NCBI GenBank assembly: GCA_002719395.1
Contig: PBHM01000028.1
Location: 1-42,262 of the forward strand
Direction: 5' to 3'
Length of the DNA: 42,262 bases
Source: Methanobacteriota archaeon
Lineage (GTDB): Archaea; Thermoplasmatota; Poseidoniia; Poseidoniales; Poseidoniaceae
The position numbers and the translations under genes were made by a program. The stretch's first letter is position 1. Each line of letters begins with the position of its first letter. Positions 29,777 to 42,262 of the stretch are shown piece by piece. Below the pieces are notes generated by a model that searched no databases, was not told where the DNA came from, and saw only the letters and a list, made by a program, of their open reading frames with translations.

Positions 29777-30793
29777 TCATTCTTCTTCAGATGTTTCAGT
29801 AATCATAAACGCTGGCAAGAAAACAGTCCACCATGAGTGACGCTTGTTGTAGCCATCATCATTAAAGTATGAACGAATTTTAAGAGAAAGCATATCAAAA
29901 ATCAAAACGACAATTAAAATTATAATTACATATGCAAGTACCTTTTGGTATCTAAGGAAATCAAGATACAAATTAATGTAATATCCAATGCCTCCGGCAC
30001 CCACGATGCCTATGACTGTTCCATGCCTGAAATTATATTCAAACATGAAAATAGCTTGTGAAATGAGATTATTGGCCGTTTCCGGTAAGACTACTCCAAA
30101 AGAGCGTTCAAACCAACCATGACCCATTGCTCTTGATGCATCTAATTGCGGTTGAGCCACGCCTTCTATTGCCTCATACTGCAACTTGCCTAAGTATCCA
30201 ATTGTATACAATGTCATTGCCATAATGCCAGCCATGGGGCCAAGACCAACCATTATCACAAAGAATAATGCCCACAAAATACTTGGTAAGCTTCTTGATG
30301 CTGCTAATATAAATCTTGCAGGATAACTTAGCCAAGGAGGGCTTAGATTTTTTGCAGCGAATAGAGCTATTGGGAAAGAAAGCAGCATCCCAAAAATTGT
30401 AGCGACAAATGCTATTTTTATTGTTTCAACCACTCCTATCCATGCAGTTGAGCATGTAAATTCGAGATACTCTGGTTGTTGACACACTGGATAAGCCTGA
30501 GGTTGGATAACGCTCCAATCAGGAGGCCATAATGATTCTTTGAAAAAAGTCTGGATATTCCTTGGGCTGTTAAACAAACGATCCCAATTCCCTTCAATAG
30601 TAATGTGTGTGACCCAAATGGCCATGAAGAAAAGCAAAATGAAAGTTGAAGGCCATCTTAATCTTCTCCACATCATATAGACTGGATCATCAAAGGATTT
30701 TGGATCGTGTTTCATCGATTCGTCATCCATATTGGTTTCACTAGTGACCGAGGGATATTTCATCGCATTATCATCTAGTTGTTCCTCTGACAA
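29777..30793 (-). CDS. ABC transporter permease, PhnE-like
   Basis: A 338-residue inner-membrane subunit. The first 40 residues are acidic and cytosolic, followed by one helix, then an external loop of about 65 residues with two cysteines (PVCQQPEYLEFTC), and then the binding-protein-dependent permease domain. Typical PhnE features are SRSLPSILWALFFVIMVGLGP, the coupling loop ASRAMGHGWFERSFGVVLPE and NFRHGTVIGIVGAGGIG. The start is TTG 30793 with GAGGTG 5 nt upstream, 4 nt after the ATPase gene. By similarity it would be called a phosphonate/phosphate permease. The receptor encoded upstream points to Fe(III) instead; that substrate is inference. Confidence 0.85.
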   Translation of the reverse strand: MSEEQLDDNAMKYPSVTSETNMDDESMKHDPKSFDDPVYMMWRRLRWPSTFILLFFMAIWVTHITIEGNWDRLFNSPRNIQTFFKESLWPPDWSVIQPQAYPVCQQPEYLEFTCSTAWIGVVETIKIAFVATIFGMLLSFPIALFAAKNLSPPWLSYPARFILAASRSLPSILWALFFVIMVGLGPMAGIMAMTLYTIGYLGKLQYEAIEGVAQPQLDASRAMGHGWFERSFGVVLPETANNLISQAIFMFEYNFRHGTVIGIVGAGGIGYYINLYLDFLRYQKVLAYVIIILIVVLIFDMLSLKIRSYFNDDGYNKRHSWWTVFLPAFMITETSEEE

Positions 30794-30797
30794 TCTA

Positions 30798-31469
30798 TCA
30801 CCTCAATTCAGTTTCAAAGAGTGTCCCGTCTTCCGCTGTAAATATTCGATTTGCCATGATTTTTGCTCTCTCCAGATTATGCTCAACCAAAATCATAATT
30901 GCATTATTTTCTTTGACAAAATCTAAGACTACTCCCATTACTTTCGATAGTGTTTCATCATCTAATTCTGCTAAAAATTCATCTGCTAGGATCATTTTAG
31001 GATTTTGTACTAATGCTCTAGCAATCGCTACTCTCCTTTGTTGGCCCCCTGATAATTCACGTACTGGAGACCAAATTTTTTCACTGATTCCAACTAATTC
31101 TAATGATGATTTTATCATTAATTTAGAATTTGAAAAATATGGAAACCAAGGGTTGGTATGACCTGCAAGTACCCCGAGTAATACATTGTGATATACGCTT
31201 GAATGCCTTAATAATCCTAGTCTTTGAGGGATATATCCTACCGTTCCACGTCTAGGCTTTCGATTGCCAAATATACTTACCTCACCGTGTAGTGGTCTGA
31301 TTAGTCCAGCAAGAGTCCTAAGAAGTGTTGTTTTTCCAATTCCCGATGCCCCATTTATTGCGACAATATCTCCGGGATTTATATGGAAACTTTTTACAGC
31401 CAATATAGGCTTTTTTCGGTTATATCCAATTATAGCATTGGTAACAGAAATTCCGAGTTTGTCAACCAT
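30798..31469 (-). CDS. ABC transporter ATPase, PhnC-like
   Basis: A 223-residue nucleotide-binding subunit. It has Walker A GASGIGKTT, the Q-loop in GYIPQRLGLL, the signature LSGGQQRR, Walker B MILADE and the H-loop in VEHN. The order of receptor, ATPase and permease on one strand makes a complete importer. ATG 31469 follows the receptor stop by 59 nt. Confidence 0.9.
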   Translation of the reverse strand: MVDKLGISVTNAIIGYNRKKPILAVKSFHINPGDIVAINGASGIGKTTLLRTLAGLIRPLHGEVSIFGNRKPRRGTVGYIPQRLGLLRHSSVYHNVLLGVLAGHTNPWFPYFSNSKLMIKSSLELVGISEKIWSPVRELSGGQQRRVAIARALVQNPKMILADEFLAELDDETLSKVMGVVLDFVKENNAIMILVEHNLERAKIMANRIFTAEDGTLFETELR

Positions 31470-31528: not shown

Positions 31529-33634
31529 TTAAAGGTTATACTTGTCATTGAAGTAGGCGGCGATTCCAGGCACATTTGATATTGAATCTGAGTAACTTCC
31601 CATATGCTCTTGTGTATTCACAGCGATAATTCCTCCAGTGTTCAAAACCTCTTCCAGTATAGAATCTCCACACATATTTTTGGTAATGTTGTTATCAACC
31701 TCTCTAGTATTTTGATTGTAACAATAACCGTCTCCTTCATCAAGCCATGTTTCATAATTCATTTCCATCAATGCATTCAGTAACGCAGCTCGAGTGTTCA
31801 TATCGATTAATTCAGGATTAAACATCACTGGATGGCTGGGTGCTTTACCAAACAGTGGTAGAGCCACATAACCTGATGAACCATCCTCATTCCTTAAACA
31901 CCAATTACGATTTCTTTCTTCACAATAAAAGTTGTGAGTTGAGTCTGCAATAAATGCGATATCTCCGCGCCCTTCTGACAAGCAACGTAGAGCTCCTTCA
32001 TAACTATAGTATAGATCTCCAGATTCTGGGATTGATGCCTCATCATTGAAGAAGTTGTATATTGTTGCTCTCAATGAAGCAACGTCATTTGGATCTCCGA
32101 TTACTTCAGCGTAACCATTTCCGATTAGGAAGCCCATCGGCAATAGCATCCCTGCAGATTTGAGCCAGCCTGTGTGGCATGATGTTTTTCCGCGAAATAA
32201 TTCAAATGGATCAGTACTGTCATCATCGTCTAGATAAGCGGCAGCTATGTCACTATCTGCTTTAACATATGCTTGGGCACCATACCAAGAACGGCCATCC
32301 GGTTTCAAGTCAGCGGCTAAAGCAGATAATCCATATTCTTTCCAACCAACCCAAGCGGCTCCTCCATCCATGAAGCCGATATCTGCATGACCAAATCTGA
32401 GTGCTTCTAGAATAGCACCCTCTGAACCAACATCATACAGCTGAACATCTACTCCTAATCTGATGGAGAGACGGTCTGCGAACAGTTGAGGATTAGCATC
32501 TATATTTTCGTATGTATCTCTGACCTCATACGCTATAATCAATGGATTCTTGGTTGCAGTCAGGGTTGCGTTTAGGTCGTAAATACCTCCGTAGTATGCT
32601 TGAATACCGGGAATGTTTCGAATTGCTGCAGAATATGTTCCAAGATGGTCCTCTGTTGTACCAACATCAACAATACCTCGGGGTGAATTAAGAACGTTGG
32701 ACAGAATCGCTTTTCCTTCATCATCATTTATCATTTGAACAAGAGCTTCACGTATGAGGGTTGCTTTTCCATCGCTGGTTTCTGCAGGGTTGTACATAAC
32801 AGGGTGCCCAGGAGCTCTACCGAACAAAGGAAGTTCCACATAATCATCATTTTCTAGACACCATGAATTGCTTGTGCCTTCCGCACAGTAGTAATTTTTT
32901 GTAGTATCAGCGACAAATGCAATATCACCACGATCTTCTGACAAACAACGTAAAGCTCCTTTATAGCTGTAGTATTCAGACCCAGATTCTGGAATCGAAG
33001 CGTTTTCATTAAAAAACGAAAATATAGTTTGTCTCATCGATTCAACTGTGTTTGGATCTCCAATCACATTGGCGTATCCGTTACCGATTAGATAGCCCAT
33101 CGGCAATAACATTCCAGCTGATTTAAGCCAACCTGTGTGGCATGAAGTCTTTCCTTGAAATAAAGCGAAGGGATCTGTATATGTACTGTTATCAAGATGA
33201 GCTTCCGCAATGTCGGTGCCCGATTTTACGATGGCTCTTGCGCCATACCAATGTCGTCCGTCGGGTTTGGTCTCTGAGGCTAATACTGCAAGATCATACT
33301 GCTGCCAACCAATCCACGCAGAACCTCCATCCATAAATGCGATATCTGCATGTCCGAAGCGAAGGGCTTCTATGGCAGCTCCCTCAGAATCGATAGGGTA
33401 GAGCGTAACTGGAGCACCTAACTTCTTTGCCATGTAATCAGCAAAGATTTGTGGGTTCTGTTCCATTGCTTCGTCTGTATAGTCATCACGAACCTCGTAT
33501 GCGATAACCAAAGAGTCGATAGTATCACTCAATTCAGAATTTTCATCATCGCCAAAACATCCAGACAATGAACTCAGGACCATAAATCCAACAATTAACA
33601 TAGCTTTTTTCACTTTACTCCAAGATTCAATCAT
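31529..33634 (-). CDS. bilobal transferrin-like ABC receptor lipoprotein (annotatable as tandem PhnD-type)
   Basis: A 701-residue lipoprotein (LSGC lipobox, Cys26) with two homologous lobes, about 40-345 and 364-701, each a type-II periplasmic-binding-protein fold. Both lobes carry transferrin landmarks. The Fe(III) ligands of human transferrin lobes (Asp63, Tyr95, Tyr188, His249) correspond to D102 (MDGG), Y130 (WYGA), Y224 (YSYKGALRCL) and H277 (APGHPV) in lobe 1, and to D423, Y451, Y545 and H601 in lobe 2. SCHTG-x-x-KSAG matches the carbonate-binding SCHTG-x-x-RSAG: Thr167/488 are kept and Arg124 is replaced by Lys171/492. The human disulfide Cys118-Cys194 has equivalents C165-C230 and C486-C550. 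GDIAFVAD matches transferrin GDVAFVKH. The frame is open to 33706; ATG 33634, after AGGTGAG, fits the signal peptide. Expected role: surface capture of ferric iron for the adjacent importer. Not experimentally known. Confidence 0.85.
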   Translation of the reverse strand: MIESWSKVKKAMLIVGFMVLSSLSGCFGDDENSELSDTIDSLVIAYEVRDDYTDEAMEQNPQIFADYMAKKLGAPVTLYPIDSEGAAIEALRFGHADIAFMDGGSAWIGWQQYDLAVLASETKPDGRHWYGARAIVKSGTDIAEAHLDNSTYTDPFALFQGKTSCHTGWLKSAGMLLPMGYLIGNGYANVIGDPNTVESMRQTIFSFFNENASIPESGSEYYSYKGALRCLSEDRGDIAFVADTTKNYYCAEGTSNSWCLENDDYVELPLFGRAPGHPVMYNPAETSDGKATLIREALVQMINDDEGKAILSNVLNSPRGIVDVGTTEDHLGTYSAAIRNIPGIQAYYGGIYDLNATLTATKNPLIIAYEVRDTYENIDANPQLFADRLSIRLGVDVQLYDVGSEGAILEALRFGHADIGFMDGGAAWVGWKEYGLSALAADLKPDGRSWYGAQAYVKADSDIAAAYLDDDDSTDPFELFRGKTSCHTGWLKSAGMLLPMGFLIGNGYAEVIGDPNDVASLRATIYNFFNDEASIPESGDLYYSYEGALRCLSEGRGDIAFIADSTHNFYCEERNRNWCLRNEDGSSGYVALPLFGKAPSHPVMFNPELIDMNTRAALLNALMEMNYETWLDEGDGYCYNQNTREVDNNITKNMCGDSILEEVLNTGGIIAVNTQEHMGSYSDSISNVPGIAAYFNDKYNL

Positions 33635-33742
33635 GGTCTCACCTGACCATGCGAAAGGCGGGACTAATATGAATGTTAGGGGGCCCGAAAAATTTGATAC
33701 TTTCACTAGAAATCATGTTAAATCGAGGCACAATCGGCCCAT

Positions 33743-39437: not shown

Positions 39438-39505
39438 AAGACGCCCTATGGCTATTATGTTTTAAATTTAGGCAACCCTAAAAACGCACCCTTATTCGCA
39501 TTGAT

Positions 39506-40285: not shown

Positions 40286-41331
40286 CTAATTTGAGAGCAT
40301 TAGTAACTGGAGGTTGCGGTTTTATCGGTAGCCACCTGGTGAAAGCATTAGTTGCAGATTCAAACTTTCTAACTATCGTAAATGTTGATGCTCTAACTTA
40401 CTCGGGTCATCCTGAAAACTGCTCCGACATAGATAATGTGAGATACAAGTTCAAACATCAATCAATCAACGACAGACCATCTTTTGAGAATACATTACGT
40501 GAAGAAAACATCTCAATTATTTTTCATCTGGCCGCAGAAAGCCATGTTGATCGTTCAATTCATTCAATTAAACCATTTATTTCCACAAATGTTGATGGAA
40601 CTCGGGTTATTCTTGAATCAATCTTAGCATTAAGGAAGGAAGGTCAAGAAATCAGTTTGGTACATGTTTCAACAGATGAGGTATATGGCTCATTAGGCCC
40701 AAATGATCCCCCATTCACTGAATTGACACCTGTCAATCCACTTAATCCATACGCTGCAACAAAGGCAGCCTCCGATTTTTTAGTAAAATCATTTGTAAAT
40801 ACATTCAACATATCTGCAGTCATCACAAGATGTTCAAATAACTATGGCCCTAATCAATTTCCAGAAAAATTAGTTCCTCTTATGATTTTAAAAACTAGAT
40901 TAGGAGAAAAATTACCGATCTACGGTGATGGGAAAAATGTGAGAGATTGGATACACGTAACTGACCATGTAGGGGGAATAGTCTCTTCCGCAAATGCGTT
41001 AGTTTCTGGTAAATTAACTTCAGGCGAGGTCATTAATTTTGGAGGAGAAAACGAAAAAACAAATTTGGAGATTGTCAGAAATATTGTTGAGAAGATTGGT
41101 GCATCTGATAATTTAATTGAGTTTGTTCCTGATCGTCCCGGGCATGATAAAAGATATGCTATCGATATCAGCAAGGCAAAAAAGCTGTTGAAATGGTCTC
41201 CAAAGATGAATTGGGATAATGGTATCATTGAAACTATTCTTTGGTATAAGTCCAATGATAAATGGGTTGCTTCAATCACGAGTGGAGAGTACAAAAATTG
41301 GATTAGAAAACAATATGGTGATACAAAATGA
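40282..41331 (+). CDS. rmlB: dTDP-glucose 4,6-dehydratase
   Basis: A protein of about 349 residues, an extended short-chain dehydrogenase. GGCGFIGSHLV is the NAD-binding loop, STDEVYGSL the catalytic Asp-Glu region, and PYAATKAASD the Tyr-x3-Lys pair. YGPNQFPEKLVPLMI and RDWIHVTDH are typical RmlB. The product, dTDP-4-keto-6-deoxyglucose, is the substrate of the WecE-type enzyme encoded upstream. GTG 40282 overlaps the rmlA stop; ATG 40267 is the alternative. The stop overlaps the next ATG. Confidence 0.93.
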   Translation: MTNLRALVTGGCGFIGSHLVKALVADSNFLTIVNVDALTYSGHPENCSDIDNVRYKFKHQSINDRPSFENTLREENISIIFHLAAESHVDRSIHSIKPFISTNVDGTRVILESILALRKEGQEISLVHVSTDEVYGSLGPNDPPFTELTPVNPLNPYAATKAASDFLVKSFVNTFNISAVITRCSNNYGPNQFPEKLVPLMILKTRLGEKLPIYGDGKNVRDWIHVTDHVGGIVSSANALVSGKLTSGEVINFGGENEKTNLEIVRNIVEKIGASDNLIEFVPDRPGHDKRYAIDISKAKKLLKWSPKMNWDNGIIETILWYKSNDKWVASITSGEYKNWIRKQYGDTK

Positions 41332-42262
41332 GATCAAATCTTTTAGAAATTGTGATAGTTATACTGTTAATAAGTCCTTTTTTAATTTCTAGTGGAGTTT
41401 TGTCTTCATTTGAGTTTGCTGATACTAAGTTTTCAAACGCAAAAGATGACGATTACTGCGAAGATACTTATGACGATGAAGATGGATGTAATGCTGATAG
41501 TCAATGCGAGTGGGATGATGATGAATGCGATGAGATTGATGATGATTCTGATGATTCTGATGATTCTGATTCCGATGAGGATCAAAGTGATGTTGATAGT
41601 GATGGTGATGGAGTAACAGATGAACAGGATGATTTTCCCTACGACTCAACAGAAACTACGGACTCTGACGGAGATGGAGTTGGAGATAATGCTGATGAAT
41701 TTCCTTATGATCCCAATGAATCGAATGATTCAGATGGCGATGGAGTAGGAGATAATTCCGATGCCTTCCCTAATGATTCTAACGAAAGTAAAGACTCAGA
41801 TGGTGATGGAATCGGAGATAATGCTGATAATGATGATGATGATGATGGAATAGAAGATCACCAAGATGATAGCGATGGTGATGGAGTCTCTGACGAGCAG
41901 GATGATTTTCCAAATGACTCTAACGAAACCACGGATTCAGATGAAGATGGTGTAGGCGACAATACTGATGCTTTTCCTAATGACCCAAATGAGTCAAAGG
42001 ACTCGGATGGCGATGGCGTAGGCGACAATACTGATGCTTTTCCTAATGACCCTAATGAGTCACAGGACTCGGATGATGATGGCGTAGGTGACAATACTGA
42101 TGCTTTTCCTAATGACCCTAGTGAGTCACAGGACTCGGATGGCGACGGCATAGGAGATAATGCTGATACTGTTCATGGTGATTCTGGGAATTCAGATGCC
42201 AGCGATTCTAGTGACAGCAGCGACAGTAGTGATAGCAGCGATTCTAGTGACAGCAGCGACAG
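41328..42262 (+). CDS. secreted acidic repeat protein (TSP3-like Ca-binding repeats plus Ser-Asp stalk), 3' end outside window
   Basis: A partial frame of 311 residues that runs off the window. A signal peptide or anchor (LEIVIVILLISPFLISSGVLS) is followed by a short Cys-containing acidic part (CEDTYDDEDGC, CEWDDDEC). Then come about eight copies of a 22-residue repeat of the form DSDGDGVGDNxDAFPNDPNES, which is the thrombospondin type 3 pattern of calcium-coordinating Asp residues. From about 42194 it turns into a Ser-Asp-Ser repeat, a stalk-like region. Its ATG overlaps the rmlB TGA, so it is translationally coupled to the sugar genes and may be their glycosylation target. Confidence 0.85.
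   Translation, partial: MRSNLLEIVIVILLISPFLISSGVLSSFEFADTKFSNAKDDDYCEDTYDDEDGCNADSQCEWDDDECDEIDDDSDDSDDSDSDEDQSDVDSDGDGVTDEQDDFPYDSTETTDSDGDGVGDNADEFPYDPNESNDSDGDGVGDNSDAFPNDSNESKDSDGDGIGDNADNDDDDDGIEDHQDDSDGDGVSDEQDDFPNDSNETTDSDEDGVGDNTDAFPNDPNESKDSDGDGVGDNTDAFPNDPNESQDSDDDGVGDNTDAFPNDPSESQDSDGDGIGDNADTVHGDSGNSDASDSSDSSDSSDSSDSSDSSD
41947..42144 (+). repeat. three near-identical 66-bp direct repeats
   Basis: The phrase GTAGGCGACAATACTGATG recurs every 66 bp (from about 41952, 42018 and 42084) with only scattered substitutions, encoding the 22-residue Ca-binding unit. The upstream repeats are more diverged, so these three look like a recent tandem amplification. Confidence 0.85.

Follow-up and report, generated by a model that had tools for sequence, protein, structure and literature searches.

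The window analysed here is a 42,262-nucleotide stretch of archaeal DNA (GenBank assembly GCA_002719395.1, contig PBHM01000028.1). It is contig 28 of a genome from the family Poseidoniaceae, phylum Thermoplasmatota, that measures 1.74 Mb and is 77% complete. At positions 31529..33634 of its minus strand (stop codon included), an open reading frame encodes a predicted lipoprotein of 701 residues that, by alignment, is a two-lobed archaeal transferrin. The frame starts with an ATG at 33634 and stops at 31529-31531. A longer GTG start lies in frame at 33706, and we favour the ATG because of the lipobox LSGC and the regulatory box at 33676-33689. The lipobox (residues 23-26; 33557..33568, minus strand) has a predicted lipidated Cys26, and its Gly25 and Cys26 are invariant in 57 aligned sequences, the window protein among them. 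Lobe 1 comprises residues 37-352 (32579..33526) and lobe 2, delimited by alignment, residues 353-701 (31532..32578), both on the minus strand. On the same strand, 59 bp downstream, comes the gene for a PhnC-like ATP-binding cassette (ABC) ATPase (30798..31469; TIGR02315, 144.7 bits, below the cut-off of 266.1), and 4 bp beyond it that for a permease of the PhnE family (29777..30793; TIGR01097, 240.8 bits, above the cut-off of 216.7). Sequence comparisons make it highly probable that the protein is a two-lobed transferrin-family lipoprotein, likely the ferric iron-(bi)carbonate receptor of this adjoining PhnC/PhnE-type importer.

Each lobe carries, in this order, Asp, Tyr, Cys-His-Thr, Lys, Tyr, Cys and His, which align to Asp63, Tyr95, Cys118, Thr120, Arg124, Tyr188, Cys194 and His249 of human transferrin. 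The putative metal and anion site of lobe 1 (32804..33331, minus strand) would thus comprise Asp102, Tyr130, Thr167, Lys171, Tyr224 and His277, with the pair Cys165/Cys230; that of lobe 2 (31832..32368, minus strand) would comprise Asp423, Tyr451, Thr488, Lys492, Tyr545 and His601, with the pair Cys486/Cys551. The sequence-only reading had claimed that all these motifs stand in order in both lobes, with a complete Asp/Tyr/Tyr/His set and both positions of the Cys118-Cys194 pair, and alignment to transferrins bears this out. Its carbonate site survives in part: the threonine is present in both lobes, but the motif SCHTGWLKSAG, found in each, has a lysine where animal transferrins have the anion-site Arg124. 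This lysine keeps the charge and should still hold the anion, and it may tune affinity or release. The two cysteine equivalents are present as a pair, which may form a disulfide.

The same residues recur across the relatives. From 378 lobes of 241 proteins we dropped 17 with a gap at any of the eight columns, and in the 361 complete lobes the equivalents of Tyr95, Tyr188 and both cysteines are without exception (361/361), followed by those of Thr120 and of His249 (360/361 each), of Asp63 (352/361, with Ser in the other nine) and by Lys at the Arg124 position (351/361). An alignment of 82 lobes has 21 invariant columns, which include the equivalents of Tyr95, Thr120, Tyr188, His249 and both cysteines. 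Such variation as exists would suit a protein whose sites have degenerated and whose fold now serves a different function; saxiphilin and the inhibitor of carbonic anhydrase are transferrin-family proteins of that sort. Besides the lysine for Arg124 and the serine for Asp, two of the 27 archaeal rows in our first tree are exceptions: G047, additional to the 361 lobes counted, has Gly for Lys and Asn at the Tyr188 position, and P0163 has Ser for Asp and Ala for Lys. Nevertheless, all four protein ligands are kept in both window lobes and in 351 of the 361 complete lobes, a degree of conservation not expected had metal binding been lost, and the gene order with the importer is conserved. We therefore regard site degeneration as extremely improbable.

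A protein of this kind would normally be annotated as a tandem phosphonate-binding protein. On such a reading it would serve a PhnCDE-type importer as a double receptor for phosphonate or phosphite, with its likeness to transferrin owed to common fold ancestry only. Some of our results weigh on that side. The comparison of the two Pfam profiles that the sequence-only reading had proposed came out divided, since the Transferrin profile PF00405 matched the whole protein well over its cut-off (107.7 bits against 20.3, in four stretches), but the Phosphonate-bd profile PF12974 scored higher (127.2 bits, cut-off 27); transferrins and PhnD-type proteins have a common fold. The model of lobe 1 (predicted local distance difference test score 95.9, predicted template modelling score 0.90) has the fold of a transferrin lobe, and in structure comparison PtxB and ArrX match the model as well as transferrins do. 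A model of both lobes was weaker (76.9 and 0.52 on the same two scores), and the single lobe was therefore modelled from a broader alignment. PhnD, PtxB, HtxB, ArrX and AioX (PF12974) also have in common with the archaeal protein the Tyr95 position and partners of the PhnC/PhnE type, and the names that JGI gives to relatives among the matches listed are mostly those of phosphate or phosphonate receptors.

The more specific comparisons point away from phosphonate. The scores for the NCBIfam profile for PhnD (TIGR03431, 51.1 bits, cut-off 261.1) and for TIGR01098 (86.1 bits, cut-off 112.05) both stay below their cut-offs. With the single sequence as query (phmmer), the best matches in the PDB are lactoferrins (E = 1e-23). 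A profile built from eight single-lobe archaeal relatives is led by melanotransferrin (1.2e-51), and the best 60 of its 115 PDB matches (up to E = 10) all belong to the transferrin family, saxiphilin and the inhibitor of carbonic anhydrase among them. In two trees, one of 27 archaeal lobes, five animal lobes and nine PhnD-type proteins and one of 28, five and 13, with hand-picked subsets of archaeal rows, a branch with 100/100 support places the archaeal and animal lobes together and apart from the PhnD-type proteins, although long branches meet in the larger tree. None of the 13 PhnD-type rows has the near-invariant Asp (Gly, Ser or Cys stand in its place), the Lys (Ser stands for Lys/Arg) or the Cys pair, and only ArrX has the Thr120 equivalent; nine have His at the Tyr188 position, and the other four have both Tyr188 and His249. 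The sequence-only reading had left a choice between a prokaryotic relative of transferrin and a striking convergence, and the lactoferrin match, the profile ranking and the tree branch settle it for the former; convergence is ruled out by the sequence match and the concordant trees. By ancestry, as far as sequence can tell it, the protein is a true member of the transferrin family.

The importer genes conserved beside the transferrin gene have PhnC/PhnE names as well. Our counts of operons and boxes cover the best 80 of 246 relatives from a scan of the contigs of named genomes. PhnC/PhnE-type genes lie downstream of the transferrin gene in 66 of these 80 loci; of the 14 not counted as having both transporter genes, six have fewer than 800 bases left after the transferrin gene, and in two (L093 and L102) an ATPase gene is visible by eye that the rules of the script missed. 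The C-P lyase gene PhnJ was found in none of 145 genomes of the phylum (the window's own being 77% complete), in a search that did not extend to other phosphonate routes. Taken with the tree, the profile scores, the residues that PhnD-type proteins lack and an upstream box of the iron-repressor type, described below, the absence of PhnJ makes a phosphonate or phosphite receptor very improbable.

We noticed the box as the pattern TTAGGG....CCTAA upstream of a relative's gene. A structural study of IdeR proposes a 14-bp consensus, TTAGGNNNNCCTAA, for iron regulators of the IdeR/DtxR type and describes such a site at a complex I promoter (PMC8464063). The box of the window, TTCGGGCCCCCTAA (33676..33689, minus strand), differs from this consensus by one mismatch and begins 130 bp upstream of the codon for the lipobox Cys, a distance common to six relatives (L013, L022, L025, L026, L033 and, with two mismatches, L028). 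The exact consensus occurs in 26 of the 36 loci of a first set, six of which are the window's own gene, and many loci have two boxes about 34-45 bp apart. Within 260 bp ahead of the profile match, 67 of the 81 transferrin genes in the 80 loci are preceded by an exact box and 78 by one with at most one mismatch; 20 control palindromes of the same letters precede at most one of the 81. In one locus (L072) the transferrin gene stands back to back with a DtxR-family gene that includes a FeoA domain, and three exact boxes lie in the gap. Of 145 genomes from the phylum, 133 encode the DtxR-family domain PF02742, and the genome of the window is among them.

Genome-wide, the exact pattern is not commoner than its reversed control (26 sites against 66 in 13 genomes of the family), and the weight of the box therefore lies in its places. 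By our reading of gene order, eight of the 26 exact sites are at transferrin genes, four at flavodoxin genes (two of these between flavodoxin and a complex I gene), two at a Fea1 gene followed by a FecB/FecCD-type operon, and one at FTR1; for the remaining 11 no link to iron was seen. The window's own genome has only two exact sites, neither at the transferrin gene. Judged by its box, the transferrin gene probably belongs to an iron regulon of the IdeR/DtxR type, as a predicted target of the repressor. Because the box is common to iron genes, it supports an iron function independently.

The regulator leaves room for a different metal, since the DtxR family includes manganese regulators. A transferrin-family receptor whose ligand is, for instance, manganese(III) or some other trivalent ion, or one that scavenges metals broadly, would also agree with a related bacterial binding protein encoded near mntR, and PDB titles show transferrin structures that contain Al, Cr, Ti, Yb, Bi and Ru. 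Two points favour iron over these metals: the company of the box, which stands at FTR1, Fea1, flavodoxin and complex I genes as well, and the hard Asp-Tyr-Tyr-His-carbonate set, which is the textbook Fe(III) site. We consider another metal very improbable.

If ferric iron is the ligand, the receptor would be held outside the membrane by its lipid anchor, and each lobe would close on one Fe(III) through Asp, Tyr, Tyr, His and a carbonate that would rest on the Thr and, replacing Arg124, on the Lys. The closed lobe would dock on the permease, where the iron would be released and imported with ATP spent. With its two lobes, each anchored protein would offer two sites for catching iron. When iron is plentiful, the iron-loaded DtxR-family repressor would shut the gene through its TTAGGNNNNCCTAA box. 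Binding, closing, docking and release are likely steps by analogy with the biochemistry of transferrins and ABC importers.

The sequence-only reading had also likened the two lobes to those of animal transferrins. Two lobes there are, but they do not go back to a common two-lobed ancestor. The window's lobes are each other's closest rows in both trees (99/99 and 100/99). Animal N- and C-lobes likewise group with one another (100/100 and 100/99); the doubling therefore happened twice. A tree that joins window lobe 1 to the animal N-lobes, a grouping that we defined once the first tree was known, was rejected in the approximately unbiased (AU) test (p-AU 2.4e-67). The animal lobes form a long branch that falls either next to the archaeal lobes or within them; the archaeal lobes as one clade were not rejected (p-AU 0.32), with a branch support of 45/58 in the larger tree. 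One-, two- and three-lobed forms exist among the relatives, which suggests that lobe number varies through repeated duplication. In this connection, we note a three-lobed transferrin of 1156 residues (P0086) and an 817-residue open frame with several lobe matches (G215:C96).

Four PhnD-like binding proteins (L204 2911-3786, L205 908-1783, and those of L174 and L175) have equivalents of Tyr95, Tyr188 and His249 and lack those of Asp63, Thr120 and the Cys pair. The one in L204 is encoded near mntR and the one in L174 near a DtxR-type gene; no such neighbour was seen for L205 and L175. These four are likely metal receptors and candidate intermediates on the way to transferrin. It is tempting to speculate that transferrin is a prokaryotic invention: an iron-regulated ABC receptor that arose from a PhnD-like protein, with the Tyr-Tyr-His proteins as surviving intermediates and an archaeal home, was inherited or acquired by eukaryotes, and doubled separately in archaea and animals. 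We hold this scenario and its negation in about equal balance.

Among known systems, the animal transferrins (lactoferrin, serum transferrin, ovotransferrin and melanotransferrin) come closest, with the same fold, motif order, Asp-Tyr-Tyr-His set, anion-site Thr, Cys118-Cys194 pair and two lobes, and a significant sequence match. The archaeal protein differs from them as a lipoprotein in an ABC operon, with Lys for Arg124 and with a two-lobedness that arose separately; its lobe 1 has only four Cys, whereas animal lobes generally have more. Melanotransferrin is also membrane-anchored. The FbpA/FutA-type proteins are likewise periplasmic ferric receptors of ABC importers, sometimes with a synergistic anion, and are set apart as another binding-protein family with other partner genes. 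A review describes ISIP2a as an algal surface protein that captures ferric iron in a carbonate-dependent manner and is taken up by endocytosis, and relays the claim of McQuaid 2018 that ISIP2a and transferrin have a common origin among the phosphonate-binding proteins (PMC7676907). By that description, ISIP2a and the archaeal protein would have carbonate-dependent surface ferric capture in common and would differ in endocytic uptake as against an ABC importer.

Another protein known from algae, Fea1 (PF07692), occurs in the same archaeal class. Of 389 genomes from the phylum, 34 contain a match, in 33 of them above the cut-off, and two archaeal Fea1 genes stand behind the same boxes (L053 16715-18184 and L070 5771-7006). 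Pfam describes Fea1 as a low-iron-inducible periplasmic protein. We rejected it as a hidden transferrin relative, since comparison with a profile of two Fea1 sequences aligned the signal peptide only.

That transferrins and phosphonate-type binding proteins descend from a common ancestor has already been published with ISIP2a, according to the same review (PMC7676907). A search of the open literature, with preprints and most subscription journals outside it, returned no paper that joins Thermoplasmatota to transferrin as a whole word, and no prokaryotic transferrin with the full ligand set, operon and iron box. The covered parts of two papers on Marine Group II (PMC6336850, PMC9723583) did not contain transferrin as a whole word. 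As far as the open literature shows, such a prokaryotic transferrin is probably new to print.

Textbooks usually present transferrin as a protein of animals that has analogues in algae. In Poseidoniia (Marine Groups II and III), abundant archaea of the surface ocean, all signs are that it serves an ABC importer as an iron-regulated receptor. This suggests a concrete origin of the transferrin family and a likely answer to how uncultured Poseidoniia acquire iron. If carbonate were needed as in diatoms, the iron supply of these archaea would be linked to seawater carbonate, and hence to acidification. The finding would also correct database entries that are now called, for example, phosphate/phosphonate transport protein or melanoma-associated antigen p97.

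The family is widespread in this class. Of 389 genomes from the phylum, 113 contain PF00405 matches, as do 39 of 60 sampled from the class Poseidoniia; 14 control genomes contain none. FecCD transporters are over the cut-off in seven of the same 60 genomes, and transferrin is therefore the more widespread. Our homologous-protein listings cover 120 of 729 and 120 of 284 matches. Among the closest proteins listed, one is 98% identical to that of the window, and a relative in the 77-79% range is labelled Candidatus Poseidoniaceae, a name for Marine Group II archaea. Outside the class, three other genomes of the phylum carry PF00405, and a Woesearchaeota genome (L102) has a transferrin with, by eye, the same gene order.

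Plasmid 2 of the cultivated haloarchaeon Natronococcus occultus SP4 carries a frameshifted, unannotated transferrin-like gene (L203 4850-5860; 40.4% identity) in the order metal-dependent regulator, transferrin-like gene, ATPase and PhnE, with both Cys and the Lys replaced. It was the one transferrin-like gene among the best 15 of 42 plasmid records; the other 14 are binding proteins at 25.6-27.4% identity. We did not count as bacterial a carrier labelled Deltaproteobacteria AH-558-G13 (L129), where the gene order around the operon is that of Marine Group II. A protein labelled Rhodobiaceae (P0043) resembles a Marine Group II sequence; both labels are probably wrong, by gene order or identity. 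Some relatives among the matches listed are labelled "PhnD/SsuA/transferrin family" by NCBI, and four (P0128, P0155, P0164 and P0171) bear the JGI label "melanoma-associated antigen p97", which is melanotransferrin.

Other genes near the operon deserve brief mention. An exact TTAGGNNNNCCTAA lies at 39468-39481 of the window, upstream of an rfbA-like sugar nucleotide gene in a cluster adjoining the transferrin operon, and in G229 exact boxes (L053 8649 and 6752) precede rfbA-like and DegT-like aminotransferase genes of a cluster in the same position, all named by eye. It is possible that the cluster is an iron-regulated surface sugar cluster. At 41328-42260 begins a highly acidic protein of DSDGDGVGD repeats, by eye like thrombospondin type 3, which extends past the end of the window.
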